From: Candidatus Rhodoblastus alkanivorans
GTDB lineage: Bacteria > Pseudomonadota > Alphaproteobacteria > Rhizobiales > Beijerinckiaceae
Direction of reading: 5' to 3'
DNA: 64,000 nucleotides
NCBI RefSeq assembly: GCF_022760755.1
Contig: NZ_JAIVFP010000001.1
Coordinates: 2,956,001-3,020,000 of the forward strand
Numbering within the stretch: the stretch's first letter is position 1; each line of letters starts with the position of its first letter. Positions 21,122 to 64,000 of the stretch are shown one piece after another. A program made the translations under genes and the position numbers. A model generated the notes under the pieces. The model had not been told where the DNA came from and did no database searches. It worked only from the letters and a program-made list of their open reading frames with translations.

Positions 21122-22144
21122 ATGGCGAGGAACGTAAACGGGAGAAGATTGTTGCCGCGCGCTTCAGGGAAAAGTGCAAAAGGTCGGATACATGCGCTTC
21201 GCGTGCTGTTTTTCCTGGCCTTTCCGACCGTCGCCTTCCCGGCCGTGTCTTGGGCGCGGGCGCCGGCCCTTTCCCCGATCCAGACGCCGCCGCGGATCGT
21301 CGCGGCGATCGCGGGCGGATCAGGGACGCCAGCGCAGGACAGCCAGCAGCCCCGCGTCGCGGTCACGTTCAACGCGGTTTTCGCCCCCGGCGACATCCAG
21401 GCGATCGGCTCGGGTCTGAAATGGCGGGTGTTCGACGCCCGCCCCGATGCCGATGGCGGGCATGCGCTGATCGCGGAATCGAGCGACGCGGCGCCGAACT
21501 TTCAGCTGCCCGACGGCGATTACATCGTCCACGCCGCCTGCGGCCTCGCCGGCGCCGACAAGCGGTTCGCGGTCAATGGAGCGCCGGTGGATGAGAGGCT
21601 GGTCATGCACGCCGGCGCCCTGAAGATCGAGGGCCAGCTCGGCGATACGACGATTCCGGCGTCGCACCTCAACATCATGGTCTATCTGCCAGACCGCGAC
21701 GATCCCGAAGCCAAGCTGATCATTCCCAATCTCAAGGCCGGCGAGCCGGAATGCCTGCCCGAAGGCGCCTATCACATCGTCTCGCGCCTGATGGACGTCG
21801 CGCCGGGCTCGACCGTCCCGACCAATTCGACCGTCAACGCCGATCTGCGCGTGCAGGCCGGCAAGCTGACCGACGGCGTCCTGCGCCATCGCGCCGCCAC
21901 CATGACGCTGAAACTGGTCAATGCGCACGGCGGCGAGGCGCTCGCCAACACCAGCTTTTCGGTGCTGACGCCGGGCGGCGACGTGATCCGCGAAATGATC
22001 GGCGCCTTCCCCTCGCTCGTCCTCGCCGAGGGCGAATATGTCGCGATCGCCCGCCACGAAAACAAGACCTATCAGGCGAGTTTCAGGGTCGTCGCCAATC
22101 AGGACCGCGACGTGGACGTGCTGACCAGCCAGCCCGCGCAGTAA
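21122..22144 (+). CDS. Hypothetical secreted protein
   Basis: About 340 residues. Not recognised as a named family. A hydrophobic segment ALRVLFFLAFPTVAFPAVSWARA near residues 25-47 looks like a signal peptide with a long N-region, so export to the periplasm or outer surface is likely. The mature part has repeated beta-rich units of the form DGDYIVHAACGLAG, EGAYHIVSRLMDV and EGEYVAIARHENKTY, each ending in a Tyr-containing strand. It therefore looks like three or more beta-sandwich modules. The start is uncertain: ATG at 21122 is the first methionine near the signal peptide, and a TTG after GGGAG near 21150 is an alternative. The 45-bp repeat cluster begins 6 bp after the stop. Confidence 0.6.
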   Translation: MARNVNGRRLLPRASGKSAKGRIHALRVLFFLAFPTVAFPAVSWARAPALSPIQTPPRIVAAIAGGSGTPAQDSQQPRVAVTFNAVFAPGDIQAIGSGLKWRVFDARPDADGGHALIAESSDAAPNFQLPDGDYIVHAACGLAGADKRFAVNGAPVDERLVMHAGALKIEGQLGDTTIPASHLNIMVYLPDRDDPEAKLIIPNLKAGEPECLPEGAYHIVSRLMDVAPGSTVPTNSTVNADLRVQAGKLTDGVLRHRAATMTLKLVNAHGGEALANTSFSVLTPGGDVIREMIGAFPSLVLAEGEYVAIARHENKTYQASFRVVANQDRDVDVLTSQPAQ

Positions 22145-22150
22145 ACTCGC

Positions 22151-22331
22151 GCGAGCGGTCGGCGCATGCCGGAGCGAGCGCCAAAAGAAACTTGAGCGAG
22201 CGGTCGGCGCATGCCGGAGCAAACGCCAAAAGAAACTTGAGTGAGCGGTCGGCGCATGCCGGAGCAAACGCCAAAGGAAACCTGCGTGAGCGGGTCGGCG
22301 TATGCCGGAGCAAAGGCCAAAGGAAACCTGC
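22151..22331. repeat. four tandem copies of a 45-bp intergenic repeat (family A)
   Basis: Units start at 22151, 22196, 22241 and 22286 (the last is 46 bp). Each opens with GYGAGCGGTCGGCGYATGCC, continues with GGAGCRARCGCCAAARGAAA and ends CTTGA or CCTGC. The core GGCGCATGCC can fold into a short hairpin. The array fills most of the gap between the secreted-protein gene and the cytochrome c gene. The unit start and core match the 44-bp repeats at 28195-28365. Confidence 0.9.
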
Positions 22332-22417
22332 GCGAGGGCCGGCGGCTTTCGACATGGAATTTGGCGCTTGCCTCCACCTTGGCCGATGCTTCACATTGGC
22401 CTCCGGGAGTGGAATCC

Positions 22418-28077: not shown

Positions 28078-28194
28078 GTCATTCTCCATGCTCACTCGCC
28101 GTGACGAGCCGGCGTAAGCTGTTTGCGGAACCGCTTTCCTATCGCGATTTGGCGGAAGAGCGCAATGCGGCGTAACGCTTGAAAAAATTACCAA

Positions 28195-28365
28195 GCGAGC
28201 GGTTGGCGTACGCCAGAGCTAGCGCTCGACTCAGCTCAGCGAGCGGTTGGCGTACGCCAGAGCTAGCGCTCGACTCAGCTCAGCGAGCGGTTGGCGTACG
28301 CCAGAGCTAGCGCTCGACTCTGCCCAGCGAGCGGTTGGCGCATGCCGGCGCCAGCCCTCAAAAGT
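28195..28365. repeat. tandem 44-bp intergenic repeats (family B) with a hybrid last unit
   Basis: Three near-identical 44-bp units start at 28195, 28239 and 28283, each GCGAGCGGTTGGCGTACGCC followed by AGAGCTAGCGCTCGACTC. TGGCGTACGCCA is a perfect 12-bp palindrome and the flanking CGAGCG/CGCTCG also pair, so each unit can fold. The fourth unit from 28327 switches to GGCGCATGCCGG and ends CTCAAAAGTTGA, which is the form of family A at 22151. It sits between thrS and the divergent membrane-protein gene. Confidence 0.88.
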
Positions 28366-49639: not shown

Positions 49640-50511
49640 TGGACAGGCCCCGCCAAAGCCTTGTCGAGGGCGCCGAGTTGCGAAAGCATCCAGGACTGAT
49701 AGGTCATGCTGGACGGCTCGGTTTCGGTAATGCCGACGACCGGGATCTTTTCATCCTTCGCCAGTTTCACCAGCCGCTGGACCGCCGGCGCGTTCGCCTG
49801 AGCGTTGTATAGCATAACCCGCACCTTATGCGTTTTCAGGTCGTTCTCGAAGGCGGCGACGTCGGATACGCTCGGCTCGGTACTGTTCATGACCGCGATC
49901 TGGAATTTCTCATTGCGCATCTTCAAGCCCAAGGCCTGCGCCATATAGCCGAAAACCGGCTCGGAGGCCGTCACCGCAGCGCCCTTATATTTCTCTTTCA
50001 TTTCGGCGATCTTCTTTTCGAGCGGGGCGAGCGAGGCGATGAAGGCGCCCTCCCGCTTCTGGTAGTCGGCTTTATGCGCCGGATCGACCGCCGACAAATC
50101 GGCGGTCAGGCGCTGCGCCAGCGCTTTCATCGTCGCGGGCGCATACCAGATATGCGGATTGTCGCCGGCTTTTTTATGGACCAGTTCGGCCACGACGATC
50201 ACTTTCCGGCCCGGGTGCTTCGCTGCGGACAGGAGCTTTTCCATCCACGGGTCGTAATCGGCGCCGCTGCTGATCGCGATCTTCGCGGCGCTCAGTTCGC
50301 GGGCGGTCGAGGGGCTCGCCTCGAAGAGATGGGGGTCCTGATCGGGGTTGGACATGATGCTCGTGACCGTGGCGTCGGGACCGCCGATCTGCCGGGCGAC
50401 ATCGCCATAGAAATTTTCCGCGGCGACGACGGAAACAGGCGCAGCCAACGCCGGCGAGACCGCCAGGCAGACAAAAATCCACGCCGCAGGCAAAAGAGAC
50501 AAAGATTTCAT
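49636..50511 (-). CDS. znuA: Periplasmic zinc-binding protein
   Basis: 291 residues, cluster A-I (ZnuA/TroA) binding protein. Signal peptide LPAAWIFVCLAVSPALA. Metal ligands are expected at the histidines of NPDQDPHLFE and DNPHIWY, with a later acidic ligand. The flexible His-rich loop of typical ZnuA is missing, so metal specificity (Zn versus Mn) is not certain from this protein alone. First gene of the operon; GAGGAG lies upstream of the start. Confidence 0.88.
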   Translation of the reverse strand: MKSLSLLPAAWIFVCLAVSPALAAPVSVVAAENFYGDVARQIGGPDATVTSIMSNPDQDPHLFEASPSTARELSAAKIAISSGADYDPWMEKLLSAAKHPGRKVIVVAELVHKKAGDNPHIWYAPATMKALAQRLTADLSAVDPAHKADYQKREGAFIASLAPLEKKIAEMKEKYKGAAVTASEPVFGYMAQALGLKMRNEKFQIAVMNSTEPSVSDVAAFENDLKTHKVRVMLYNAQANAPAVQRLVKLAKDEKIPVVGITETEPSSMTYQSWMLSQLGALDKALAGPVQ

Positions 50512-50568
50512 GGTCGCGGGGCTCCTCGCAACGCGCCGACCGGGAGCATCCAGCCGATTCGCCCGCTT

Positions 50569-50587
50569 GGTATATTATAACATATTC
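50569..50587 (-). promoter_or_regulatory. Zur-like operator / promoter of znuACB
   Basis: On the minus strand the site reads GAATATGTTATAATATACC, 57 bp upstream of the znuA start. The GTTATAATAT core and the GAA-N2-TGTTATAA left half match the alphaproteobacterial Zur operator (palindromic TGTTATA-TATAACA form); the right half is weaker. TATAAT inside it may also serve as the -10 element, which would let the repressor block RNA polymerase. Confidence 0.6.
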
Positions 50588-50628
50588 ACACTTGTCGATC
50601 ATGACGACGGAAGCGAAAACGCGGCGCC

Positions 50629-51006
50629 TTGGCGCCTCGCCGGCGGCCCAACACTCCTGAAAAGGGGGAGCGCGCCAACCGCCTTGTTCAATCGGACAAG
50701 CCCTACGCCGACCCCACCGTGGTGCGGACCGTCAATCGCCGCATCGCGCCGGACTTGGAGCGGCTGGCGGCATTGCCAGAAATTCTCTCCAACGCCTTGT
50801 CGCCCACGCTGATCTTCGGCGCGGCGATCGTTCGCGGCCAGGGGCTGGCCGGCCGCGGTTCCGGTGGCGGAGAAGCTCGGCGCCGTCGTCTAGGCCGCGC
50901 CAGCGAGCGAGCGGCGCTGAAGGCCGAGGTCGCGGCATCTTTCAAGGGGTCGCGCCCGCATGTGTTCGAGGTTCCGATAGCGCCTGACATTCCGCCGCTC
51001 ATCTGA
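50629..51006 (+). CDS. Doubtful small gene, possibly a remnant
   Basis: A 125-codon frame in the 540-bp gap between znuA and ntrC. No family is recognised. It is basic at both ends, has an ordinary-looking middle (DPTVVRTVNRRIAPDLERLAALPEILSNALSPTL) and an arginine-rich stretch that looks like frameshifted or non-coding high-GC sequence. There is no good ribosome-binding site. It may be the decayed end of a once longer gene; otherwise the gap holds nothing recognisable apart from the znuA control region. Confidence 0.25.
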   Translation: MAPRRRPNTPEKGERANRLVQSDKPYADPTVVRTVNRRIAPDLERLAALPEILSNALSPTLIFGAAIVRGQGLAGRGSGGGEARRRRLGRASERAALKAEVAASFKGSRPHVFEVPIAPDIPPLI

Positions 51007-51053
51007 GAGGCGCTGTCGCAGTGCAAGCGCGACGAGACGCGGCGCGACGTCCC

Positions 51054-52547
51054 TCACCGCGAGGAGCGCATCAGCCGCACGTCGAGGTCTCGCACTTTTT
51101 TACGCAGGGTGTTGCGGTTGAGGCCGAGCAGTTCGGCGGCCTTGATCTGGTTGCCGCGGGTGGCCGCGAGCGCGATCGAAATCAGGGGATATTCGATTTC
51201 GCGCAGGATGCGGTGGTAGAGGCCCGGCGGCGGCAGCTTGTCGCCATGGACCTTGAACAATTCGGTGAGATGACGCTCGACCGCCATGGAAAGCGATTCG
51301 TCCGGGTCGCGCGCGAGCGCGGAGGCCGGCGTCGCGGCGCCGGCCTGGCCCGCGGGCGGCGCAAGGAAGGAGCCGGACTCGCGGGAGACGTCGAGGCCCA
51401 GTTCGCTGACGATGATCTGTTCGGAAATCAGCTCCTGCGGATAGAGCGCCGCGAGACGGCGGACCAGATTTTCCAGCTCGCGGATATTGCCGGGCCAGCG
51501 ATAACGCTTCATCCGCTCCAGCGCCGCCGGCTCCAGCGATTTCAGCGGCAGCCCCTCGTTGACCGCCTGGGCGAAGAAATGGCGGGCGAGGTCGCCGATG
51601 TCCTCGGCGCGCTCACGCAGGGGCGGCAGACGCAAGGGCACGACATTGAGGCGGAAGAACAGGTCCTCGCGGAACAGGCCCTGCTGGATGAGGACGCGCA
51701 AATCCTTGTTTGTCGCGGCGACGATGCGGACATTGGCCTTGATCGGGGTGCGGCCGCCGACCGTGGTGTATTCGCCCTGCTGGAGCACGCGCAACAGCCG
51801 GGTCTGCGCGTCCATCGGCATGTCGCCGATCTCGTCGAGGAAAAGCGTGCCGCCCTCGGCCTGTTCGAACCGGCCGACGGACCTTTGGTTCGCGCCGGTG
51901 AAGGCGCCCTTCTCGTGACCAAACAATTCGGATTCGATCAGGTCGCGCGGGATGGCGGCGACATTGATCGCGACGAAGGGACCTTTCTTGCGTTTGCCGT
52001 AATCGTGCAGGGCGCGGGCGACCAGCTCCTTGCCGGTGCCGGATTCGCCGGTGATCATCACCGTGAGGTCGGACTGCATCAGCCGCGCCAAAGCGCGATA
52101 GATGTCCTGCATGGCCGGCGAGCGGCCGACCAGCGGCATGCCCTCCATGTCGTCCGGCTCGGGCGTGCGCAGCCGGTTCTTCGGCTCGCTCATCGCCCGC
52201 CCTACGATGGCCAGAAGCTCCTTCAGGTCGAAGGGTTTGGGAAGATATTCATAGGCGCCGCGCTCGGAGGCCTTGATCGCGGTCATGAAGGTGTTCTGCG
52301 CGCTCATCACGATGACCGGCAGATCCGGCCGCGCCTTTTTCACCCGGGGCAGCAGTTCGAAGGCGTTCTCGTCCGGCATTACGACATCGGTAATGACCAG
52401 ATCGCCCTCGCCCGCCTGAATCCAGCGCCAGAGCGTGGATGCCGCGCCGGTGGTGCGCACTTCATATCCCGCGCGCGTCAGGGCCTGGCCCACGACGGTG
52501 CGGATGGCCGCGTCGTCGTCCGCGACGAGAATATTGCCGCTCGGCAT
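51054..52547 (-). CDS. ntrC: Nitrogen regulation response regulator NtrC
   Basis: 497 residues. Receiver domain with phosphoacceptor D54 ([10 protein letters not shown]), AAA+ domain with Walker A GESGTGKE, the sigma54 loop GAFTGA, Walker [10 protein letters not shown], and a Fis-type helix-turn-helix ([17 protein letters not shown]). Activates sigma54 promoters for nitrogen assimilation when phosphorylated by NtrB. GGAGG lies 8 bp upstream of the start. It follows ntrB by 74 bp. The ntrYX pair usually next in related genomes is not here. Confidence 0.96.
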
Positions 52548-52621
52548 TCAATGACCTCCAAAGCCTTCCAAGATCCCGCGAGATGTAATGGGCGCCAGGG
52601 TGATGGCGAGAGCGCCCGGGA

Positions 52622-53779
52622 TCAGACGTCGCGGGGCGAATAGACGGGCATGAGAACCCGGAAGAGCGTTTTCCGCGGAAGGGATTCGCATTCGATGACG
52701 CCGCCGTGATCGCCTATGATCTTGGCGACCAATGCAAGTCCGAGGCCAGAGCCTGAAGCCTTGGTGGTGACGAAGGGATCGAACAGATGCGGCATCAAAT
52801 CCTCCGGGACGCCCGGTCCGTTGTCGCGCACGCAGAATTCGAGCGGCAGGCTGACCGGCGTCGCCCGGCCGGGCGCGCGGATGCGGACGCCGGGCCGATA
52901 GGCCGTGGTCAGCTCGATTTCACCGTCCATGGAATCGTCGCCGAGCGCTTCCACTGCGTTTTTCACAAGATTCAGAAAGACCTGGACGAGTTGGTCGCGA
53001 TTGGCGAGCACCGGCGGCAGCGACGGATCGTAGGTCTCGACGAAGCGGACGCGCCGGGCGAAGCCCGCCTGGGCGATGCGCCGGACATGCTCCAGCACCT
53101 CGTGAATATTGACCGCGCCGCGCTCGACCGGACGGCCGTCGGAAAAGGCCTCCATCCGCTCGACCAGCGCCACGATGCGGTCGGTCTCGTCGCAGATCAG
53201 GCGGCACAGGCCGCGATCCTCGTCGCCCACGGCGGAGTCGAGCAATTGCGCCGCGCCGCGAATGCCGGACAGCGGATTCTTGATCTCATGCGCCAGCATG
53301 GCGCCCATGGCCGAAAGCGAGCGCGCCGCGCCGCGATGGGTGAGCTGGCGGTCCATCTTGTCGGCGATCGTGCGCTCCTGCAGCATGATCACCACGCCGT
53401 CCGCTATATTCGGCAAGGGCGCGATGTGTATGTCCACATAGCGTTCGACGCCGATCTTGGGCGTGCCGAGATCGACCCGGTATTCATTGATCGGCGCGCG
53501 GCGCTGGCGGACCATGTCGATCGCCGAGATCAGCGGCGAGCCGAACGGCAGCAGGTCCGGGAATTTGATCTTGCGCAAGTTGTTGCGCGATATGTCGAAA
53601 AACAGCTCCGCCGCGGGATTGGCGTCGCGGATCGAGCCGTCGCCGGCCACCGAGAGCAGCGGGTGCGGCAAGGCGTTGAGCAATTGCGCCGACGGGCAAT
53701 CGGCCATGCCCACGCCTGCCAAATCTTCAGGCGCCTCGTTGCGATCATCGCTTGTTTTCTGGGCAAGTCTACTTGTCAT
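52622..53779 (-). CDS. ntrB: Nitrogen regulation sensor kinase NtrB
   Basis: 385 residues, soluble. An N-terminal PAS domain ([22 protein letters not shown]) is followed by the dimerisation domain with phosphoacceptor H164 in [12 protein letters not shown], then N ([11 protein letters not shown]), G1 (DNGPGV) and G2 (GSGLGLAL) boxes. Its activity toward NtrC is set by PII proteins according to nitrogen supply. The start codon overlaps the dusB stop by four bases, giving a dusB-ntrB-ntrC operon. Confidence 0.95.
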
Positions 53780-54870
53780 GCCGCCTCCAGATCGGGCGCT
53801 CGTTCATAAAGACGACAGAGCAGATCAAAGACCTCCCGCGCGTCCTCGGTTTCGACCAGACGCCGGCGCGCCGCCGCATCCAGCCCGCCGCCCTCTTCCG
53901 CCGCCACATCCGCATAAGCCGCAAGATGTTTGCGGGCGTGGCGCAAGCCCTGGCGCGATCCGAGCAAGTCCATCAAAGTCGCGACATGCTCGCGCGCCGC
54001 GTCACGCCGCGCCTGTGGCGACAGCGCCGGCCTCGCTCGGCCATTGCGTAGTAAATAGGCAATATCGCCGACAATCCAAGGGCGCCCCAGCGCGGCGCGG
54101 CCGATCATCACGGCTTTTGCGCCCGATTGCGCCAGCATTTCCCACGCGTCCCGCGGCGAACGGCAATCGCCATTGGCGACGACCGGTATCTCGACCGCTT
54201 CGCAGACGGGGCCGATCGCCGCCCAATCCGCCGCGCCGCGATAGAACTGGTTCCGGGTGCGGCCGTGGACGATCACCATGGCGGCGCCCTCGGCCTCGGC
54301 GCGGCGGGCGAGTTCCGGCGCGTTGAGCGAGGCCTCATCCCAGCCCAAACGCATCTTGACGCTCACCGGAACCTTCACCGCGCCGGTCACGGCCGCGATC
54401 AGCCGCGCCGCGAGGTCGAGGTCGCGCATCAAGGCCGAGCCGGCCGCGCCGCCGACCACCCGCTTGGCCGGACAGCCCATATTGATGTCGATGAGATCGG
54501 CCCCGGCGTCCGCAACCAGCCGGGCTGCTTCCGCGAGGCTCTCAGGCTCGCGGCCGGCGATCTGCACGGCATGGGGCGACACGCCCTCCCCCATTGCGCG
54601 GACCACGCTCTCGCGTCCAAACTTTCCCGCCTTGCCGCCGGCGGCCTGGGCGAAATCATCGCTCGCGACCATTTCGGAAAAGGCGAGGCCCGCGCCGAAA
54701 CGCCGGGCGAGACGGCGCATGGCGAGGTCGGTCACGCCCGCCATGGGCGCGAGAAAAGCCGGCGCGTCGATCGTCAGACCGCCGACGCGCAAAGGGGCGA
54801 CCGAAGCAGGCGCGTGAAACAAGGAGGCGGCGCCCGCGCCATCGCCCACTTGTTGAGCAAAATCGTTCAT
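53776..54870 (-). CDS. dusB: tRNA-dihydrouridine synthase (NifR3/DusB)
   Basis: 364 residues, FMN-dependent reduction of uridines in the tRNA D-loop. The barrel opens with [20 protein letters not shown]. The active-site cysteine lies in [14 protein letters not shown], and [16 protein letters not shown] and [17 protein letters not shown] follow. It is the classical nifR3 gene ahead of ntrBC. Divergent from ispDF, with only 104 bp between the start codons. Confidence 0.94.
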
Positions 54871-54974
54871 GCCTTGATTTTAGACAAAATTTTTCCCTCC
54901 GCAATCTGAAAGCGCGGATCGTTCGCGCGGAAGGTTTGAACGGAAAGTTTGACCCGGACAAAGATTCGGGCGAC

Positions 54975-56219
54975 ATGTCCCGAAGAAGAGCGAGCGGGGA
55001 AATGGCCGAGGATCACGGAGCAAAAAAGGCGGGCGGGGCTTTTTTCCTGGTGGTCGCGGCGGGGCGCGGCGCGCGCGCCGGCGCCGGCGGCCCGAAGCAA
55101 TATCGCGAGCTCGCCGGTCGCCAGGTTCTGACCCGCACCCTGCGAGCCCTGCTCGACGGCGCGGCGGGCGCGAAGGCGCTGGTTGTCATCCATGCCGACG
55201 ATCGGGACCTCTATGAAGCCGCGATCGCGCCGCTGCCGGACGATGTGCGCGCACGGCTTTTTCCCCCGGCTTTCGGCGGCGCGACGCGGCAGGACAGCGT
55301 ATGCAACGGGCTGGAGGCGCTGGCGGCGTTCGGCGTCGGCGACGACGCCGCCGTGCTGATCCACGACGCCGCGCGGCCTTTCGTCAGCCCCGGGCTGATC
55401 GCGCGCGCGCTCGAGGCGGCCCGTGACAAGGGCGCCGGCGTTCCGGGCGTCGCCGTGGTCGATACGATCAAGCAGGTCGCGGAGGATTTGCGCATCGTCG
55501 CTACGCCCGCGCGCGCGACCTTGCGCGGGGTGCAGACGCCGCAGGCCTTTCGTTTCGTTCTCATTCTCGCCGCCCATCGTGCGGTTCGCGCCGACGGCTG
55601 CCGCGAAATGACCGACGACGCCGCGGTGGCCGAATGGGCCGGCCATTGCGTCTTCGTCTTTCCCGGCGAGGCGGAAAACGTCAAGCTCACCACCCCGGAG
55701 GATTTTTTGCGCGCGGAGGCCAAATTGTTCAACGAGCTCGCCGATATTCGCACCGGCCAGGGTTTTGACGTCCATGCCTTCGGCAACGGCGATCATGTCT
55801 GGCTCGGCGGCGTGAAAGTGCCGCACGATCGCGGGCTCGTCGGCCATTCCGACGCCGATGTGCTGCTCCACGCCATCACCGACGCCGTCCTCGGCGCCAT
55901 AGCGGACGGCGACATCGGCGCCCATTTCCCGCCGAGCGATCCGCAATGGCGCGGCGCCTCGTCCGACCAGTTCCTCCGCCACGCCGTCGAGCGCGTCGCC
56001 GCCCGGGGCGGCCGCATCGCCCATATCGACGCCACCTTGATCTGCGAACGTCCCAAGGTCGGCCCCCACCGCGACGCCATCCGCGCCCGGATCGGCGAAA
56101 TCATGGATCTGCCGCTCGACCGGGTGGCGGTGAAGGCGACGACTTCGGAACGGCTCGGCTTTACCGGACGGCAGGAAGGCATTGCGGCGATGGCCATGGC
56201 GACGGTGAGGCTGCCGTAA
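54975..56219 (+). CDS. ispDF: Bifunctional IspD/IspF isoprenoid enzyme
   Basis: 414 residues carrying two MEP-pathway steps. The N-terminal IspD part ([18 protein letters not shown], then [17 protein letters not shown]) makes CDP-methylerythritol. The C-terminal IspF part ([19 protein letters not shown] and [19 protein letters not shown] with metal ligands) makes the cyclodiphosphate. The fusion is typical of alphaproteobacteria, although the intervening IspE step is separate. ATG 54975 or 55002 could be used; the earlier one is reported. It overlaps no neighbour and precedes cinA by 16 bp. Confidence 0.95.
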
Positions 56220-56235
56220 AACTCGGAGAGGCGAC

Positions 56236-56754
56236 ATGCGCGACGAAATCCTGGTCACGGCGCGGCGGGTGCTTGACGCCTGTTTCACGCGCAAGCTCAA
56301 AATCGCAACCGCGGAATCCTGCACCGGCGGGCTGATCGCCGCCGCGCTGACGGAAATTCCCGGCGCTTCGGACGTATTCGAGCGCGGCTTCGTCACCTAT
56401 AGCAACGAGGCCAAGCAGGATATACTCGGCGTTCCGGCCGACCTCATCGCCGCACATGGCGCGGTGTCGCCGCAGGTCGCCGAAGCCATGGCGCTCGGCG
56501 CGCTGGAACATTCGCGCGCCCAAATGGCGCTGTCGGTGACCGGAATCGCCGGCCCGGACGGCGGCTCGGCGCAAAAGCCGGTCGGCCTCGTCCATTTCGG
56601 CCTCGCCCGCGTCGATCGCCCGACCCTGCTGGCGGAAAAGCATTTTGTCGGGCCGCATGGAAAAGCTCTCGCGCGGGAAGAAATCCGCCGCCAGGCGGCG
56701 CTGACTGGTCTGCGGATGCTGCTCGAAGCCGCCGCGCCGCAACTCTACGCCTGA
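56236..56754 (+). CDS. pncC: CinA C-terminal-type nicotinamide-nucleotide amidohydrolase
   Basis: 172 residues, the stand-alone CinA C-terminal domain. TAESCTGGLIAAALTEIPGASDVFERGFVTYSNEAK and SVTGIAGPDGGSAQKPVGLV are the family blocks (Ser and Lys/Tyr active-site region). It hydrolyses NMN to nicotinate mononucleotide in pyridine nucleotide recycling. GGAGAGG precedes the ATG. Likely co-transcribed with ispDF upstream and the acyl-CoA synthetase downstream, 14 bp away. Confidence 0.92.
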   Translation: MRDEILVTARRVLDACFTRKLKIATAESCTGGLIAAALTEIPGASDVFERGFVTYSNEAKQDILGVPADLIAAHGAVSPQVAEAMALGALEHSRAQMALSVTGIAGPDGGSAQKPVGLVHFGLARVDRPTLLAEKHFVGPHGKALAREEIRRQAALTGLRMLLEAAAPQLYA

Positions 56755-56768
56755 GTCCGGAGGCGATT

Positions 56769-58289
56769 TTGTCCAACCATCTGCTCGATCTGATCGCCTC
56801 GCGCGTTCCCGACCCGGAAAAAATCTTCATCCAGTCGCTGGACGGCGAATCGATTACCTATCGCCAGATGCTCTCGGCGAGCGCGCGCTACGCCAACGCC
56901 CTGGTTTCGCTCGGCGTCGAACCCGGCGACCGGGTGGCGATGCAGATGGAGAAATCGCCCGCCTTCCTCTTCATCTATCTCGCCTGTTTGCGCGCCGGCG
57001 CGGTTTTTCTGCCGCTCAACACCGCCTATACGCCGCATGAGGTCGGCTATTTCCTCTCGGACGCCAAACCCAAACTGATCGTCTGCGACATCGAACGCGC
57101 GGATTCGCTGCGCGACGCCGCGGGCGAAGCGGAAGTCCGTATCGTGACGCACGGCCAGGGACAGGCGGGCGAGCTTTACGATCTCGCCGCCATCAGCCCG
57201 CCCGACTTCGCCAATGCCGCGCGCGGCGACGACGACCTCGCCGCGATCCTCTACACCTCGGGCACCACTGGCCGCTCGAAGGGCGCGATGCTGTCCCATG
57301 ACAATCTCGCCTCCAACGCTTTGACCCTGGTGGATTATTGGCGTTTCACGCCCGACGACGTGCTCATCCATGCCCTGCCTGTCTACCACACCCACGGCCT
57401 GTTCGTGGCGACCAACAATATTCTGTTGTGCGGCGGCTCGATGATTTTCCTGCCCAAATTCTCCGCGCCGCAGATTCTCGAAGCCATGAGCGAAAGACCC
57501 GACCGTCTGCGCGGGACGGTGCTGATGGGCGTGCCGACCTTTTATACCCGCCTGCTCGACGAGCCGGGCCTGACTCGCGAAGCCTGCTCCCATATGCGGC
57601 TGTTCATTTCCGGCTCGGCGCCCTTGCTCGCTGAAACCCACCGCGCCTTCTCGAACCGCGCCGGCCACGCCATTCTCGAACGCTATGGCATGACCGAAAC
57701 CAATATGAACACCTCCAATCCCTATGACGGCGAACGCATCGCCGGCACGGTCGGCTTCCCCCTGCCCGGCGTGTCGTTGCGCGTGGCCGATCCCCAAACC
57801 GGCGCGGCCTTGCCCTCCGGCGAAATCGGCGTGATCGAGGTGAAGGGGCCCAATGTCTTCAAGGGCTATTGGCTGATGCCTGAAAAGACCGCGAGCGAAT
57901 TCCGGCCCGACGGCTTTTTCATCACCGGCGACCTGGGGACGATCGACGACAGGGGCTATGTGCGGATCGTCGGCCGCGGCAAGGATCTGATCATCACCGG
58001 CGGTCTGAACGTCTATCCGAAGGAGATCGAGACCGAGATCGACTCCCTGCCCGGCGTCGTCGAGAGCGCTGTCATAGGCCTGCCAGACCACGATTTCGGC
58101 GAGGCGGTCGCGGCCGTGGTGGTGCGCGCCAAAGCCGCCCCCATCGACGAAGCCGCCATTCACGACGCGCTGCAAAGCCGGCTCGCCAAATTCAAATGGC
58201 CGAAGAAGATCTTCTTCGTCGACGACCTTCCGCGCAACACGATGGGCAAGGTGCAGAAGAACGTTTTGCGCACGACCTACGGCGGGTGA
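56769..58289 (+). CDS. Malonyl-CoA synthase-like AMP-dependent synthetase
   Basis: 506 residues, ANL superfamily. The start is TTG, with GGAGG at 56759-56763. The phosphate loop is ILYTSGTTGRSKGA, the A5 motif ERYGMTETNM, the A7/A8 hinge TGDLGTIDDRGYVRIVGRGKD, and the A10 lysine region NTMGKVQKNVLR. Overall length and the CLRAGAVFLPLNTAYTPHEV and LMGVPTFYTRLLD stretches agree with malonyl-CoA synthetase MatB, which activates malonate with ATP and CoA. matA/matC are not adjacent, so another short acid is possible. Confidence 0.82.
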   Translation: MSNHLLDLIASRVPDPEKIFIQSLDGESITYRQMLSASARYANALVSLGVEPGDRVAMQMEKSPAFLFIYLACLRAGAVFLPLNTAYTPHEVGYFLSDAKPKLIVCDIERADSLRDAAGEAEVRIVTHGQGQAGELYDLAAISPPDFANAARGDDDLAAILYTSGTTGRSKGAMLSHDNLASNALTLVDYWRFTPDDVLIHALPVYHTHGLFVATNNILLCGGSMIFLPKFSAPQILEAMSERPDRLRGTVLMGVPTFYTRLLDEPGLTREACSHMRLFISGSAPLLAETHRAFSNRAGHAILERYGMTETNMNTSNPYDGERIAGTVGFPLPGVSLRVADPQTGAALPSGEIGVIEVKGPNVFKGYWLMPEKTASEFRPDGFFITGDLGTIDDRGYVRIVGRGKDLIITGGLNVYPKEIETEIDSLPGVVESAVIGLPDHDFGEAVAAVVVRAKAAPIDEAAIHDALQSRLAKFKWPKKIFFVDDLPRNTMGKVQKNVLRTTYGG

Positions 58290-58308
58290 CGGCGGCGCCG
58301 CGCCGCGT

Positions 58309-58878
58309 TCAAAACTGCGGCTGGCGGTAATGGGCGAGATCGGCGGTCGGCGTCACCAAATCCGGGTCGTAATCGTGCTGCGCCAATTCGCGCGCGGTGG
58401 TGTCGCCGCCCTCCGCCGCCTTGTCGATCAAGGCCTTGCCAGCGGCGCGGTCCCGCATCACGCCATGGCCGCGCAAAAGGTCGAGGCCATAATTGAACTG
58501 GCCGAGCGAGGAGCCGGCGTCCGCGAGTTTTTTATCCCACTCCGCCGCCTTGACCGGGTCTGACGGCCGGTCGAAGCCGTTTTCCTCCATGTAGGACATC
58601 CAGGGCATGGCGTTGAGATTGCCATGTTCGGCGCAATGCTTGAAAATGCGGCGCGCTTCCTCATGCTGCCCGGTCTTGTCGAGGAAGACGCCATACATGC
58701 ACATATGCGGGTCGTAATCGTCGTCCGTCGCCTTCGCGGCCCAATATTGCACCGACATGTTTTGCGGATTCAGTTCGCCCGTCTGCTCGTCCGGCGCGGG
58801 GGACTTCGCCGCCGCTTCAGCCGCAACCGCCGGCGCGCCGGCAAGACACAGGGCGAGAAAAGTGAAAGCGAATTTCAT
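58309..58878 (-). CDS. Secreted Sel1-like repeat protein next to pqqA
   Basis: 189 residues. Signal peptide MKFAFTFLALCLAGAPAVA, then a short acidic linker and at least three helix-turn-helix repeats of Sel1/TPR type, such as CMYGVFLDKTGQHEEARRIFKHCAEHG and GQFNYGLDLLRGHGVMRDRAAGKALIDKAAEGG. Two cysteines (CMYG, KHCAEH) may pair. GGAGG lies 5 bp before the ATG. It is downstream of and collinear with pqqA, the response regulator, kinase and MxaD-like genes, so a periplasmic accessory role in PQQ-dependent oxidation is a reasonable guess but unproven. Confidence 0.75.
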   Translation of the reverse strand: MKFAFTFLALCLAGAPAVAAEAAAKSPAPDEQTGELNPQNMSVQYWAAKATDDDYDPHMCMYGVFLDKTGQHEEARRIFKHCAEHGNLNAMPWMSYMEENGFDRPSDPVKAAEWDKKLADAGSSLGQFNYGLDLLRGHGVMRDRAAGKALIDKAAEGGDTTARELAQHDYDPDLVTPTADLAHYRQPQF

Positions 58879-59004
58879 CAGCGCCTCCAGAATGCAAACA
58901 TGCAACTAAACGCAAAGAGGCCGCGCCCGCGAAAACGGATGCGACCAGATCGGAGGAGCCGGAGGTACGGCGCGGCGGAGAGGATGCGCCGCGCCGGGAA
59001 ATTG

Positions 59005-59082
59005 TCAGATTTCGGCGGACATATAGGAAGTGACTTCCATGCCGCAGCAGACTTCGCAAACTTCCGGAGCAGTCCAGGTCAT
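59005..59082 (-). CDS. pqqA: PqqA-like peptide, precursor of pyrroloquinoline quinone, with three cysteines
   Basis: A 25-codon gene. Residues 14-20 are GMEVTSY, giving the conserved E16 and Y20 (E-x3-Y) that PqqE, PqqF/G, PqqB and PqqC turn into PQQ. The N-terminal MTW and C-terminal SAEI also match PqqA of methylotrophs. Residues 9-13 are CEVCC, an unusual three-cysteine cluster. GGGAGA precedes the ATG at good spacing. No pqqB-E follows, so this is an orphan or extra copy. It lies 119 bp downstream of the response regulator, and the 15-mer TGTAAGAATTTTGTC is centred about 113 bp upstream of the start. Too short for usual gene callers. Confidence 0.85.
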   Translation of the reverse strand: MTWTAPEVCEVCCGMEVTSYMSAEI

Positions 59083-59188
59083 AGCTTTCTCCCTTGAACG
59101 ATCTTGCTTGTGAACTCAAAGCGTCCACGACGCATGATTTCTTATAGCCGCGCCTCCGGCAAGATGCGTCAGAACCCGGCGAGAAATT

Positions 59189-59203
59189 TGTAAGAATTTT
59201 GTC
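59189..59203 (-). promoter_or_regulatory. candidate response-regulator box upstream of pqqA
   Basis: Reads GACAAAATTCTTACA on the minus strand and lies 106 bp upstream of the pqqA start codon. An identical 15-mer occurs at 62028-62042, 116 bp upstream of the MxaD-like gene. It overlaps the last two bases of the response-regulator gene. The AT-rich form with two half-sites (ACAAAAT and TCTTACA) fits an OmpR-family operator. Confidence 0.55.
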
Positions 59204-59906
59204 AGGCGTCCTCGTCATAGCGATAGCCCACGCCATGAACCGTCTTGATGATCTGCGGATGGGCCGGATCGCGCTCGATTTTGCGGCGCAGGCTGGAGAC
59301 ATATTGGTCGAGGGCGCGGCTGTTGGGCATATAGTCGCGACCCCAGGCGAGGTCGAACAATTCGTCGCGCGAAACCGCCTTGCCCGCGCGCGCCAGCAGG
59401 GCCCGCAGGATTGCGAGTTCGCGCGGCGCGAGGTCGATGCTCTGCCCGTCGCGCCAGGCGCGCAAGGCTTCCGGGTCGATTTCGATGTCGCCCATGCGCA
59501 GGCGCGGCGGCTCTTTTTCGGGCGCGACCTCTGCGGCCGGGGCGGCTTTGGTCCGGCGCAGCCCGGCCTTGATCCGCGCCACCAGCTCGCGGGCCGAAAA
59601 AGGCTTGGCGATATAATCATCGGCGCCGATCTCCAGCCCGATCACCCGGTCGATCTCGGCGCCGCGCGCCGACAGCAGCAAGATCGGCGTGCGGGAATCG
59701 CGCGCGCGGATGCGCCGGCAAAGGTCGAGGCCGTCGAGGCGCGGCATCATCACGTCGAACAGGCAAAGCGCCGGAGCTTCCTCGACGAAGGCGCGCCAGG
59801 CGGCCTCGCCGTCCTCGGCCACGATGCAGTCGATTCCTTCGAGAGCGAGCAGATCGACCAGCCCGGCGCGCAGATTTGCATCGTCCTCGGCGATGAGAAT
59901 CTTCAT
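59202..59906 (-). CDS. OmpR-family response regulator (MxbM-like by context)
   Basis: 234 residues. Receiver domain with acidic pocket EDD (7-9) and phosphoacceptor D51 (LFDVMMPRLDG), conserved K in GADDYIAKPFS. A variable linker is followed by a winged helix of OmpR/PhoB type (LAPRELAILRALLARAGKAVSRDELFDLAWG, then VSSLRRKIE and VHGVGYRYD). The start codon overlaps the kinase stop (ATGA), so the pair is coupled. Context with pqqA and an MxaD-like gene recalls MxbM of Methylobacterium, which controls methanol oxidation genes. The name is not certain. Confidence 0.92.
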   Translation of the reverse strand: MKILIAEDDANLRAGLVDLLALEGIDCIVAEDGEAAWRAFVEEAPALCLFDVMMPRLDGLDLCRRIRARDSRTPILLLSARGAEIDRVIGLEIGADDYIAKPFSARELVARIKAGLRRTKAAPAAEVAPEKEPPRLRMGDIEIDPEALRAWRDGQSIDLAPRELAILRALLARAGKAVSRDELFDLAWGRDYMPNSRALDQYVSSLRRKIERDPAHPQIIKTVHGVGYRYDEDA

Positions 59907-61387
59907 GCCGCCTCTCCCTCGGGAAGGGCCCTGATCGTAGCGCACGCCCGCAAGCCCGGATTGGCGCCGCTCAGCGAGAAGCTTCCGCCATTGACGCGGG
60001 CCAGATCCTGGACGATCGACAGGCCCAGGCCGTGCGAGGGCTTGACTTCGGCGCCCGGCGGCGGGGCGGCGCCAAAATCGCGCACTTCGAGCGCGAGCAG
60101 ACCGTCGCGCCAGGAGATCGAGACGTCGATCTTCCCCGGCGCATATTTGCGGGCGTTGTCGAGCAGATTGATGAGGATGCGCTCGAAGGCGCTGGCGTCG
60201 AAGCGCAGCCGCCCGGCCGCCTCGCAATGGGCCTCGCAGGCGCAGTTCGAGGCCGCGAGCAGCTTCTCGTAACGGGCGACGACGCGACGCGCCAGGGCGC
60301 AGGGGTCGGCGGCGGCGAGGCGCGGCGCCGGCGCCGCGCCTTGATCGCCGAAAATGGTTTCCCCGGCGAGCGCGTCGAGCCGGTCGATCTCCTCGGTCAG
60401 CACGGCGCAATAGCGGTCGAGCCCGGCGGCGCCCCCTGCCCTGCGGGCGATGAGTTCGGCGTAGAGCTTGAGATTGGCGAGCGGCGTGCGCAGGTCGTGC
60501 GACAGCCGCGTGGCGAGTTCGGCGCGGGCCGCGCTTTCCGCGAGCCGTTCCCGTTCCGCCTTGCGCGCCTGATAGACCAGCAGCAGCCACACCAGCGCCA
60601 GCGGCAAGGCGAGCGCAAGCCGCCCGAGCGCGCTGTGGCGCGGCGCGGGCGTCCCCGCGACGTCCACCGCCCAGCCGTGCAGCGCCCCGCTCTGCAGGAA
60701 GCTCTCATAGCCTTCCGGCGCGCCGCCCTTTTGCCAGATCACCCGGCCGAACGGGTCGCGCAGGCGGAAGGCCCAGCCGGGAAAAGCCTTTGCGCGCGTT
60801 TCGAGCACAGCGGTCAGATCGGCAAAGATGAAACGGCCATTGAGCGCGAGACAGGTTTCCTTGCGCGCGTCGTTCTGGCCGGCGCGCAGGCATTCAAAAT
60901 AATATTCGCCGGAGGCGTCGGGGAACCAGCCGTTGACGAAATCACCTTCGCGCAACAGGCTCGCGACCCCGGTCAGGGCGCGCACTTTTTCCCCCCACAT
61001 CTTGGGTGTGGCGAGCGGGTCGTCGGGCGGAAAAACGGTTTGGTCGCCCTCGCGGATCAGCACCAGCAATTGCTGATCATAGCCGGAAATCACCCGCCAG
61101 AGCGCATTGGGCGGGTCAAGTCCCTCCGCCGCCGCGCGGCCGATATTGACCCGGGCAAAAGCGGCCAGTTCGCCGACCTCCGCGGCCGCCGCCGCCCCCA
61201 TGGTCCCGGCGACCCCCTGCGCCCGGCGACGCGCGTTCTCGCGCAAGGCGCGATAATCCGCGTCGAGCCATTGCGCGGCGATGAGGGCGACGAAAACGAG
61301 CGGCAGGGCATAAAGCAAGGCCTGCCGCGCGGTCGCCGCCCAAGAGCCTGGCGAACGCGTGAGAAATGGCGCGCTGCGTGACTTCAA
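59903..61387 (-). CDS. Membrane sensor histidine kinase (partner of the pqqA-linked regulator)
   Basis: 494 residues from a TTG. One membrane helix near 22-40 and another near 255-272 bracket a periplasmic sensor domain of about 215 residues. This domain contains two cysteines (FECLRAG, KETCLAL) that may form a disulfide. The cytoplasmic part has phosphoacceptor H297 in LSHDLRTPLANLKLYAELI, N box LLDNARKYAPG and a late GLGLSIV. The G1 region reads DFGAAPPPG, a relaxed form. It is the gene between the MxaD-like protein and the response regulator. The signal sensed is unknown. Confidence 0.9.
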   Translation of the reverse strand: MKSRSAPFLTRSPGSWAATARQALLYALPLVFVALIAAQWLDADYRALRENARRRAQGVAGTMGAAAAAEVGELAAFARVNIGRAAAEGLDPPNALWRVISGYDQQLLVLIREGDQTVFPPDDPLATPKMWGEKVRALTGVASLLREGDFVNGWFPDASGEYYFECLRAGQNDARKETCLALNGRFIFADLTAVLETRAKAFPGWAFRLRDPFGRVIWQKGGAPEGYESFLQSGALHGWAVDVAGTPAPRHSALGRLALALPLALVWLLLVYQARKAERERLAESAARAELATRLSHDLRTPLANLKLYAELIARRAGGAAGLDRYCAVLTEEIDRLDALAGETIFGDQGAAPAPRLAAADPCALARRVVARYEKLLAASNCACEAHCEAAGRLRFDASAFERILINLLDNARKYAPGKIDVSISWRDGLLALEVRDFGAAPPPGAEVKPSHGLGLSIVQDLARVNGGSFSLSGANPGLRACATIRALPEGEAA

Positions 61388-61388
61388 T

Positions 61389-61420
61389 TTCCGCTCAGTT
61401 CTTGTTCCGCTCAGTTCTTG
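61389..61420. repeat. 16-bp exact tandem duplication at the mxaD-like/kinase junction
   Basis: TTCCGCTCAGTTCTTG occurs twice head to tail (61389-61404 and 61405-61420). One copy spans the stop codon of the MxaD-like gene; the other lies just before the kinase start and supplies its GCGGAA ribosome-binding stretch. Confidence 0.85.
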
Positions 61421-61911
61421 GCGAAATCCTTGGCGAGGGCGTCGAGGCCGGCCCGATAGACGCCGGCGATCGCCTTATGCGCCGCGTCCGCCGTGGTTCC
61501 GGGCGCGGGCGTGAAGGTCGAAGACCAGACGACCTCGCTGCCCTTGCCATCCGGCTTGACCACAATGCTCGAAATATAATGCATGACCGGAAGAACCTTC
61601 TGGTTGGTTCCATTGTCGAGGATCTTGTAGGTATAGCTGTGCGCGGCGGGCCGGTAGACGACGAGTTGCTCCCACAGGATCGGGCCGCCGAGATCGAGCC
61701 GGCGCTGCGAACCCGGCTTGTCGGCTTCCGACGCCTCGCTGCTCTTGATCGCCGGGTGCCAGGTCAGGTTGCTGAAATGGCCAATCTTTTCCCAGACCTG
61801 GGCCGGCGCGGCCGCGACCTTCACCGATTCGGACACTTTCACTATTGGCGCCGCCTGCGCGGCAAGCCCGCCCAGCGCCAGAACAGCCGCGGCGATCGTA
61901 AGACGTATCAT
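61411..61911 (-). CDS. Secreted SRPBCC-fold protein, MxaD-like
   Basis: 166 residues with signal peptide (MIRLTIAAAVLALGGLAAQA) and a START/SRPBCC domain: VKVAAAPAQVWEKIGHFSNLTWHPAIKSSE at the front and YTYKILD, VLPVMHYISSIVV and SEVVWSSTF strands later. This arrangement and periplasmic location match MxaD, which helps methanol dehydrogenase interact with cytochrome cL. GGAGG lies 6 bp before the ATG. It starts a minus-strand gene run (sensor kinase, response regulator, pqqA, Sel1 protein). The mxaFI genes themselves are not in the window, so the assignment is by fold and context. Confidence 0.75.
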   Translation of the reverse strand: MIRLTIAAAVLALGGLAAQAAPIVKVSESVKVAAAPAQVWEKIGHFSNLTWHPAIKSSEASEADKPGSQRRLDLGGPILWEQLVVYRPAAHSYTYKILDNGTNQKVLPVMHYISSIVVKPDGKGSEVVWSSTFTPAPGTTADAAHKAIAGVYRAGLDALAKDFAKN

Positions 61912-62027
61912 TTGTTTCCTCCCTTGGGGATTGGCGCGCTTTTCGCGAAGGCGAGCCTTCGACGCCATTGGTCTGCGCGTCCATTTGCCAATGGGCCACA
62001 AATTACGGCAAAAAAGAACGGGGAGGA

Positions 62028-62042
62028 TGTAAGAATTTTGTC
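62028..62042 (-). promoter_or_regulatory. candidate response-regulator box upstream of the MxaD-like gene
   Basis: GACAAAATTCTTACA on the minus strand, identical to the box upstream of pqqA, 116 bp before the MxaD-like start codon. It also overlaps the beginning of pxpB on the plus strand, so it could affect both genes. Confidence 0.5.
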
Positions 62043-62787
62043 TAACAACCCCGTCGCCCTGCCCGCGCCCCGCATCCGCGCGCTCGGCGACGCCGCCGCG
62101 AGCGTGGTTTTTGGCGCGACCATTGCGCCGGACGTCCATGCAAGGGCGCGCGCGTTCTGCGCCGCGCTCGCCGCCGCGCGCATTGAGGGCGTCGAGGAAT
62201 GGGCGCCCGCCTTTGCTTCCGCGACCGTGTGGTACGATCCGGACACGATCCTTTTCGCGGAGCTGGCGGAGCGGCTCGCCGCGCTGGCGCGGGCGCCCGC
62301 CTCTGCCGCGCCGGCCGGCGCCTTGTTCGAGATTCCATTTTGCGCGGAAGGCGATTTCGCGCCCGATCTCGAAGAAATCGCGCGGCTCAAGGGGTTGACG
62401 GCGCAGGGCTGGCTCGACGCCTTTGGCGGGCTCGCATTGGAAGTCTATATGCTCGGCTTCCAGCCCGGCTTCGCCTATCTCGGCGTGCTGCCGGAGCAGC
62501 TTTCCGCCCCACGCCTCCAAACGCCGCGCCCAAAAGTTCCCGCCGGCGCGCTCGCCATCGCCGATTCCATGTGCGCCGCTTATCCTTTCGCCAGTCCCGG
62601 CGGCTGGCGCCTGATCGGGCGCACGCCCGCGCTCCTGTTCGACGTGAGCAACGCGGCGCGTCCCGCCTTGCTGGCGCCGGGCGACCGCGTGCGCTGGCGC
62701 GCCGTTTCCCGCGCCGAATTTGATGCATTGGACAGCCGCTGGCGTGCGGAAAATTTGCGCGCCGACGAATTGCGCGCCGCGCCATGA
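62038..62787 (+). CDS. pxpB: 5-oxoprolinase subunit PxpB (KipI family)
   Basis: 249 residues from a TTG at 62038 with GGAGG 11 bp upstream; no better start is seen before the family similarity begins at RIRALGDAAASVVFG. The signature LEVYMLGFQPGFAYLGVLPEQL is intact, as are PRPKVPAGALAIAD and the CAAYPFASPGGWRLIGRTP block. With PxpC and PxpA it hydrolyses 5-oxoproline to glutamate using ATP, removing a toxic by-product. The stop overlaps the pxpC start (ATGA). Confidence 0.9.
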   Translation: MSNNPVALPAPRIRALGDAAASVVFGATIAPDVHARARAFCAALAAARIEGVEEWAPAFASATVWYDPDTILFAELAERLAALARAPASAAPAGALFEIPFCAEGDFAPDLEEIARLKGLTAQGWLDAFGGLALEVYMLGFQPGFAYLGVLPEQLSAPRLQTPRPKVPAGALAIADSMCAAYPFASPGGWRLIGRTPALLFDVSNAARPALLAPGDRVRWRAVSRAEFDALDSRWRAENLRADELRAAP

Positions 62788-63791
62788 AGGCCCGAGTCGT
62801 CGTTGAACGCCCCGGCGCCGGCGTCACGGTTCAGGACTTTGGCCGCAAAGGTTATCGCGCGCTCGGCGTGGCGGTTTCCGGCGCGCTCGACGCCAGATTT
62901 CTTGCCGCCGCCAATGCGCTGGCCGGCGCGCCGGATGACGCCGCGGGACTCGAAATCCTGCTCGCCGCGCCCGAGCTTCGCGTGGTTGAGGGCGCGGCGC
63001 GGATCGGCCTTGCCGGCGATTTTGCGGGCGCGATCCTGCGCGCCGACGGCAGGCGCGAAAATGTTGCCTCATGGCGCGGCCTGGTGTTGCGCGAGGGCGA
63101 CGCGCTGACGCTGAAACTCGGGCGCGGCCCGGCCTATCTCGGCTTTTCCGGCGGTCTCGACCTGCCCGAAATTCTGGGCGCCCGTTCGACTTTTTCCCGC
63201 GCGGGTTTCGGCGGGATCGACGGCCGCGCGCTCGCGGCCGGGGACGTTCTTCCCTGCGGCGCGGCGGAGGGCGGCGATGTTTCCGCCCCGCCGCTCGTTC
63301 ACGAAACCGGCCCGATCCGCTTCATTCCCGGCCCTCAGGCCGACCATTTCCCACCCGAAACGCTGGCGCTGTTTTCGGCGGCGCCATGGCGCGTCGGCGC
63401 CGACAGCGACCGCATGGGCCTGCGCCTTTCCGGCCCGCGCCTCGCCCACAGCCGGCTCGGCGCCAATATCGTCTCGGACGGCGCCACGCCCGGCGCGATC
63501 CAGGTCCCCGGCGACGGCCAGCCGATCGTGCTGCGCGCCGATTGCCAGACCTCCGGCGGCTACGCCAAGATCGGCTGCGCGATCACCGCCGACCTGCCCC
63601 GCCTCGCCCATCTCGCGCCCGGCGATGTCATGCGCTTCGCGCCCGTCGATCACGCCGAAGCCGCCGCCGCGCGCCGGGAAGGGCGCGAGCGGTTCGCGCA
63701 ATGGCGCGTCGGGATGGCGCCGGCGGGCGAATGCGACGACCGAAAATTATGGACCGAAAACCTCATCAGCGGCGCGACGTCCGGAGATTGA
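62784..63791 (+). CDS. pxpC: 5-oxoprolinase subunit PxpC (KipA family)
   Basis: 335 residues, biotin-dependent carboxyltransferase-like fold. VVERPGAGVTVQDFGRKGYRALGVAVSGALD is the family start. GFSGGLDLPEILGARSTF and the late DGATPGAIQVPGDGQPIVLRADCQTSGGYAKIG block are typical. Forms the ATP-dependent 5-oxoprolinase with PxpB and PxpA. PxpA is not visible in the window. Translationally coupled to pxpB. Confidence 0.92.
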   Translation: MKARVVVERPGAGVTVQDFGRKGYRALGVAVSGALDARFLAAANALAGAPDDAAGLEILLAAPELRVVEGAARIGLAGDFAGAILRADGRRENVASWRGLVLREGDALTLKLGRGPAYLGFSGGLDLPEILGARSTFSRAGFGGIDGRALAAGDVLPCGAAEGGDVSAPPLVHETGPIRFIPGPQADHFPPETLALFSAAPWRVGADSDRMGLRLSGPRLAHSRLGANIVSDGATPGAIQVPGDGQPIVLRADCQTSGGYAKIGCAITADLPRLAHLAPGDVMRFAPVDHAEAAAARREGRERFAQWRVGMAPAGECDDRKLWTENLISGATSGD

Positions 63792-63982
63792 CGGGCCTCT
63801 CAGTCGCCGGTCCCAACAGCCGGGGTTTTGGTCGCCATGCGCCGCGCATCGTGCGACCTGTTTGGCTCCGAGCGCGGGATCGTGAATCGTCCTATAATCC
63901 GTCCGTCACAGAGAGCCCGCCTTCAAGCGCGAAGCAAGGAGCGACCTTCCCCCGGCCGGCAAACTTTCGTAAGGAGGATCAA

Positions 63983-64000
63983 ATGCAGCAGCCTCTTTTC
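63983..64000 (+). CDS. start of a gene cut by the window edge
   Basis: ATG at 63983 preceded by an ideal AAGGAGG (63971-63977). Six codons, MQQPLF, are visible before the end of the window. Too little to identify. It follows pxpC by 191 bp, so it has its own leader; no promoter was recognised in that leader. Confidence 0.6.

Follow-up and report, generated by a model that had tools for sequence, protein, structure and literature searches.

A two-component pair with a putative four-half-site operator at an orphan pqqA gene of Candidatus Rhodoblastus alkanivorans

In Methylobacterium, the mxbDM genes lie 344 bp upstream of pqqBC/DE (PMC3707593), and MxbDM, whose kinase MxbD is reported to contain a HAMP domain (PMC7356819), is described as a lanthanide switch (PMC3707593; PMC7356819). 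For Acinetobacter baumannii, it was reported that pqqA, the precursor gene of pyrroloquinoline quinone (PQQ), was 31.8-fold lower in an amsR mutant of the AmsSR system (PMC10112286). Orphan pqqA copies of Methylorubrum extorquens respond to the neodymium source and are said to have been left uninvestigated in earlier pqqA studies (PMC11317620); in the Beijerinckiaceae strain RH AL1, three pqqA copies go down with neodymium (PMC10848612). Here, we describe a locus of Candidatus Rhodoblastus alkanivorans in which a histidine kinase and an OmpR-type regulator adjoin an orphan pqqA preceded by a candidate operator; it occupies positions 58309–62042 of the analyzed stretch of 64,000 nucleotides (contig NZ_JAIVFP010000001.1, 2,956,001 to 3,020,000), hereafter the window.

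Judging from sequence comparison, we consider it rather probable that this pair is a two-component switch of a family of its own: a tandem operator would activate the orphan pqqA and the Sel1-repeat gene behind it, the maturation genes beginning with pqqB would be raised, and a half-operator would serve self-regulation. The five genes of the original prediction are indeed collinear; they run along the minus strand, and profile matches assign their products, in this order, to the SRPBCC family, histidine kinases, OmpR-type regulators, PqqA and, weakly, Sel1 proteins. The prediction also pointed to an exact 15-mer present just twice, and this count held: the copies lie at 59189–59203 and 62028–62042 in the same (plus-strand) orientation, with the claimed distances of 106 bp to the ATG of pqqA (59082) and 116 bp to that of the SRPBCC gene (61911). 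The genome-wide search that had been proposed as a check gave 2 matches at ≤1 mismatch in the 4.35-Mb genome and 0 for the reversed control; with 0.0005 copies expected in the genome from base composition, a chance pair is indeed unlikely. Within the window, 3 matches at ≤3 mismatches compare with a shuffle mean of 0.38 and a maximum of 2 (100 shuffles), and among the 19 same-strand repeated 15-mers with at least 10 A/T, 18 belong to tandem arrays, the remaining one being this 15-mer.

Two features had escaped the original prediction: the 15-mer at pqqA makes up one half of an operator with four half-sites, and a second full operator, lacking the exact 15-mer, is found 5' of pqqB, 1.3 Mb away. 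In the direction of the genes, the 15-mer reads CTGACA-N5-CTTACA, a direct repeat in 11-bp phase; the alignment of promoters of two genera revealed two further half-sites, CTYGCC and CTGACS, in the same phase. The full pqqA operator (59167..59205, minus strand) consists of CTGACA, CTTACA, CTCGCC and CTGACG with the spacers AAATT, AATTT and GGGTT, and overlaps the stop codon of the regulator gene; copy 1 of the 15-mer is its upstream half-site pair. The consensus CTKACR-N5-CTTACR-N5-CTYGC-N6-CTGACS spans 39 bp in 11-bp steps. At 20 bases past the operator, there is a −10-like hexamer, TATAAG (59141..59146, minus strand). The gene that follows (59005..59082, minus strand) encodes a 25-aa peptide (...GMEVTSYMSAEI) that scores 38.5 bits with TIGR02107 (cut-off 20) and contains the E-x3-Y motif, given as the PqqA motif in the accessible part of PMC12423496. 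The genome has two pqqA genes, and this orphan copy is the second.

The comparison covered the genus of this genome (g1, 11 genomes), a second genus of the same family f1 (g22) and the families f2, f25 and f34. The 39-bp pattern gave 19 matches at ≤3 mismatches in the 11 g1 genomes and 0 in the reversed control: 11 before the orphan pqqA, one in each genome, 6 before pqqB, and 2 others (L244 and L251, 3 mismatches each) with no query gene within 1.5 kb, which were taken as chance. The short pattern GACA-N5-CTTACAA occurs exactly once in 10 of these genomes, each time 5' of pqqA. A Sel1 gene is located 3' of the orphan pqqA in every genome except G009 (10/11); six genomes have it in duplicate. 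In G005 and G008, pqqA and Sel1 lie on a different contig from the kinase–regulator pair and the operator is retained; therefore, the site follows the target gene. The offset of the −10-like hexamer from the operator end is also regular: among 50 offsets, 20 came out best for the 11 g1 pqqA promoters and 19 for nine g22 promoters.

The gapped operator pattern was then searched for in 298 genomes of the family and was found in 22 of them, comprising 10 of g1, 7 of g22 and 5 others (G019, G083, G107, G129, and G292); the reversed control gave 2. On inspection, two more g22 genomes (G124 and G147) proved to carry the operator with one mismatch, which brings to nine the g22 genomes with an operator before an orphan pqqA; the other two of the 11 sampled (G181 and G217) gave no match to the gapped pattern. 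The orphan pqqA of g22 and the genes of the kinase (32–36% identical) and the regulator (63–69%) are arranged divergently around the operator; the adjoining kinase is present in 8/9 loci and the regulator in 7/9, the missing ones being at contig ends. Between the pqqA operators of the two genera, half-site columns are 85% identical, spacers 57%, and flanks 28–30%. A matrix derived solely from the nine g22 sites was used to score 265,554 positions of this genome (the window and five other stretches): it ranked 59167 first (29.9) and the pqqB site (L062:7594) second (17.4), the next score being −5.5. Among 29 pqqA loci scanned outside g1, the exact pair was present in one (G031). In G124 and G147, further pqqA copies (L167 and L169) have nearby a one-mismatch pair and, adjoining it, another pair with one or two mismatches, apparently in reverse orientation to pqqA.

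The main pqqA of this genome (C1:1710405) is followed by pqqB, pqqE, a gene for a solute-binding-like protein and a PQQ alcohol dehydrogenase gene. In six g1 genomes the operator lies between the main pqqA and pqqB, and PqqB was found downstream of all six sites in the right frame with 84–100% identity; in this genome, the site is at C1:1710593–1710631. The original prediction had named enrichment of the 15-mer before mxaF, xoxF or other pqq genes as support, and the operator is indeed placed before pqqB in 6/11 genomes, without the exact 15-mer. In this genome, a perfect minisatellite with the 13-bp unit GTCGGACGGGTTG (67.7 copies, 100% matches; L062:7678–8557, corresponding to C1 ~1,710,677–1,711,556) follows the operator, and it may be a matter of assembly or a length switch; in the other five genomes, PqqB comes close behind the operator. 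The two sites together suggest that one switch probably sets precursor supply and processing.

The regulator (59202..59906, minus strand; Response_reg and Trans_reg_C) has the receiver and winged-helix C-terminal domain of the OmpR type and is paired with a membrane sensor histidine kinase (59903..61387, minus strand; HisKA/HATPase, membrane helices assigned by eye), whose gene overlaps its own by 4 bp. None of the 25 NCBIfam matches considered (of 97) reached its cut-off for the regulator. In a tree of 23 regulators (4 of the 11 g1, 3 of g22, 7 of at least 80 loci from a regulator-alignment scan, and others), those of the window, g22, f2, f34, and f25 form one clade (96/100), with the MxbM-like ones apart (100/100). 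The scan itself, run over genome contigs with generic patterns, was discarded, its loci (at least 80) being unrelated OmpR regulators. All 10 kin regulators compared, with or without the box, share the stretch (N/D)SRALDQ(Y/F)(V/I)S in the C-terminal domain, which is absent from two MxbM-like regulators; we take the differing stretch to hold the recognition helix. The regulators of G059 and f34 also share it, although a full operator was not found next to them. Two cysteines of the kinase, C166 and C179, both in its N-terminal half, are invariant in 15/15 aligned kinases and may form a disulfide or a ligand site; the AlphaFold model of the sensor part alone has a pLDDT of 40.6.

The SRPBCC protein (61411..61911, minus strand; Pfam Polyketide_cyc2) is encoded by the first gene of the kinase–regulator operon and has a signal-peptide-like N-terminus, as judged by eye. 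Copy 2 of the 15-mer precedes this gene as an upstream half-site pair only, no downstream pair being recognizable at 62006–62027. The gene is present at the locus in 5/11 g1 genomes, and the upstream pair stands before it in all five (with one mismatch in G009); in the six genomes lacking the gene, no pair at ≤1 mismatch was detected between pxpB and the kinase. SRPBCC paralogues at 10 loci elsewhere have no box. Across the order, a kinase profile at E ≤ 1e-50 matched 12/297 genomes, including this one. In family f2, G445 has the kinase, the regulator, an operator with one mismatch and an SRPBCC gene, and in G491 the kinase and regulator are followed by an exact upstream pair and then a Sel1 gene; the 15.0 and 9.9 kb examined, respectively, showed no pqqA. 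The pairing of Sel1 and SRPBCC genes with this regulator is thus not accidental, as the f2 kin repeat it behind the operator or the upstream pair. A second kinase–regulator pair of the family in G004 (L061:2439–4504) has a degenerate site with 4 mismatches before a DUF3047 gene. The five-gene block thus looks like a real regulon, in which SRPBCC and Sel1 are recurrent neighbors of the site and pqqA is the target in two genera. A plasmid search with the kinase returned 19 records, none spanning 80% of the query.

Taken together, these data allow us to propose how the switch may operate. The kinase would respond to a periplasmic signal. The four half-sites in 11-bp phase suggest two dimers on one helix face, and dimers of the phosphorylated regulator would accordingly be expected to sit side by side on them. 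Since the operator ends about 20 bp before the −10 element, at the −35 position, and a consensus scan found no ordinary −35/−10 pair at pqqA, activation of the orphan pqqA and its Sel1 partner fits better than repression. Binding 5' of pqqB would raise the maturation genes together with the extra precursor peptide, and the weaker half-operator before the SRPBCC–kinase–regulator genes would provide self-regulation and control of the SRPBCC protein, which is probably exported.

Several observations weigh against this interpretation or restrict it. The g1 genomes are close kin, which makes the counts less independent than they appear, and the short pattern had 6 reversed-control matches in these genomes against its 10 matches. 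The g22 matrix placed the SRPBCC site fifth (−7.5), within the background, and the looser pair CTKACA-N5-CTKACA at ≤1 mismatch gave 15 matches in this genome vs. 23 in the reversed control, and the half-operator alone is therefore not specific. G001, which lacks the SRPBCC gene, has two two-mismatch pairs 5' of the kinase, and a full operator match in G491 needs 6 mismatches. In genus g76 of f34, a pair resembling CTGACA-N5-TTTACA is located near the kinase and oriented away from it (L296–L301, L303, and L304; in 7/8 genomes it departs from the pair pattern by at most one mismatch), and the G059 locus has no such pair; at L307, the gene lying opposite encodes an EAL-domain protein. At pqqB, the half-site columns are 67% identical to those of the pqqA operators within g1 and 52% to those of g22, the −10-like signal is weak, with a best offset of 18 and on average 2.67 matches out of 6, and in this genome the minisatellite, 880 bp long, separates the operator from pqqB. 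The main pqq operons of G006 and G008 have no operator at ≤4 mismatches (those of G001, G005, and G009 were outside this check), from which it follows that pqqB control is not universal. The direction of control, finally, is read from spacing only.

This last point gives room to the reading that the regulator is a repressor, which, bound over the −35 region, would shut pqqA and pqqB until a signal arrives. The last half-site does coincide with the position of a −35 box. However, the lack of an ordinary −35/−10 pair suits an activator-dependent promoter, and PhoB-type regulators that activate usually place their dimers immediately 5' of the −10 region; we regard repression as unlikely, while giving it real weight. 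A different doubt concerns the identity of the binding protein, since response regulators are numerous in the genome (an MxbM-like query gave 36 matches), and another of the OmpR type might use the operator and leave the neighboring pair a bystander. Nevertheless, the site directly follows or adjoins members of this regulator family in two f1 genera, the site or its upstream pair recurs in two f2 genera with different target genes, and the regulators share a DNA-binding-domain stretch absent from the MxbM-like ones. A bystander role thus appears improbable, and the operator is most likely that of the adjacent regulator. That the sites are ancestral relics or chance occurrences was also considered, the 11 genomes being close relatives, and is the least credible of the explanations: half-sites are conserved between genera with flanks near chance level, control matches are 0, and the operator recurs at a second promoter (pqqB) of the same genome.

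The original prediction likened the pair to MxbDM, and a kinase–regulator pair beside a pqq gene does recall mxbDM in Methylobacterium (PMC3707593). As a reference, we used genus g9, in which a regulator lies immediately 5' of pqqA and pqqE at three loci (at two of them PqqB was checked for and lay in between; the kinase was read at one); this reference was assigned as MxbM-like by gene order alone, the order being that given in PMC3707593. The best match of the g9 regulator in this genome is another gene (C1:1275643–1276311, 56%), 3 kb from a XoxF-type gene, vs. 35% for the window regulator, and the two belong to separate clades. A HAMP domain is present in the MxbD-like kinase of G018; at E ≤ 0.001, none was found in the window kinase. 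No operator at ≤5 mismatches was seen at the three MxbM-linked pqq loci that were read. Insofar as the g9 regulators are MxbM, the assignment to MxbDM was therefore rejected, and that the pair is a local form of this lanthanide switch of methanol dehydrogenases seems highly improbable. The region around the 56% match (L275, C1:1264000–1283500) holds genes for a XoxF-type dehydrogenase, a methanol-related c-type cytochrome, a MoxJ-like protein and the MxbM-like regulator, together with glutathione-linked formaldehyde genes (S-(hydroxymethyl)glutathione synthase and S-formylglutathione hydrolase).

The first gene had been taken for an MxaD-like dehydrogenase helper that the regulator would control together with the cofactor precursor. 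The second half of this proposal is sustained by comparison, namely by the shared operator before the PQQ precursor gene; the helper role found no support. The protein matched the broad SRPBCC family only, and the best of 8 solved-structure matches was 3cnw, named XoxI, no MxaD reference having been compared. All five PQQ alcohol dehydrogenases over the family cut-off (two weaker matches below it are left out of this count) contain WD(Y/F)D, whose aspartate we take as the mark of lanthanide (XoxF/ExaF) enzymes, and none has the calcium-dependent MxaF form, in an assembly 98.3% complete.

Some other features of the locus should be mentioned. The Sel1-repeat protein 3' of pqqA (58309..58878, minus strand) has a weak repeat (Pfam Sel1, E = 3.4e-6; the score of 27.8 bits falls short of the 30.7 required) and, by eye, a signal-peptide-like N-terminus; its start codon was also picked by eye, and the list of open reading frames offers a TTG alternative at 58905. 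Between the −10-like hexamer and pqqA, a terminator scan marked a 5-bp hairpin, GCGTC-GTG-GACGC (59121..59133, minus strand); the 2 terminator-like sites found are the two strands of this hairpin, with 3.7 expected by chance. On the other side, pxpB, for a 5-oxoprolinase subunit (62038..62787, plus strand; profile match), is divergent and has a possible TTG start inside copy 2 of the 15-mer. An Rfam scan of 50000–64000 gave no match. The 16-bp unit TTCCGCTCAGTTCTTG is duplicated over the end of the SRPBCC gene (61389–61420), and tandem arrays occupy 11162–12590 (255-bp unit), 22143–22344 (45-bp), and 28194–28340 (44-bp) of the window.

In a wider and more tentative reading, which we consider possible rather than probable, an old envelope switch, with probably exported SRPBCC and Sel1 proteins as targets, as in f2, was rewired to PQQ in two related genera. 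An orphan precursor gene would have been gained, and part of one genus would have acquired a second operator between the main pqqA and pqqB; precursor and processing would then rise on a periplasmic signal distinct from the MxbDM lanthanide switch. Many methylotrophs carry pqqA copies apart from the pqq operon, and the locus bears on the reason for this and on the control of such copies: it offers a candidate regulator, an exact candidate operator and candidate target promoters for an orphan pqqA, and it separates PQQ supply from the MxbDM switch. A literature search, mostly outside subscription papers, returned no title or abstract opening on such an operator.

Overall, the system resembles the PhoB/OmpR-type regulators, which bind 11-bp direct repeats, in having a winged-helix regulator and tandem repeats in 11-bp phase by the −35 region; it differs in its half-sites (CTKACA/CTYGCC) and targets. 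With MxbDM it has in common an OmpR-type pair encoded beside pqq genes, but it belongs to another clade, has a different sensor part with no HAMP domain found, and has its own four-half-site operator. AmsSR is a further two-component system linked to pqqA, whose expression depends on it (PMC10112286), but its kinase is a hybrid with 14 predicted membrane helices, and the likeness is one of description. The pqqA2 and pqqA3 genes of Methylorubrum extorquens, too, are copies away from the pqq operon; they are differently expressed, and for them the accessible text of PMC11317620 names no regulator or operator, whereas the orphan pqqA described here adjoins a candidate for each.

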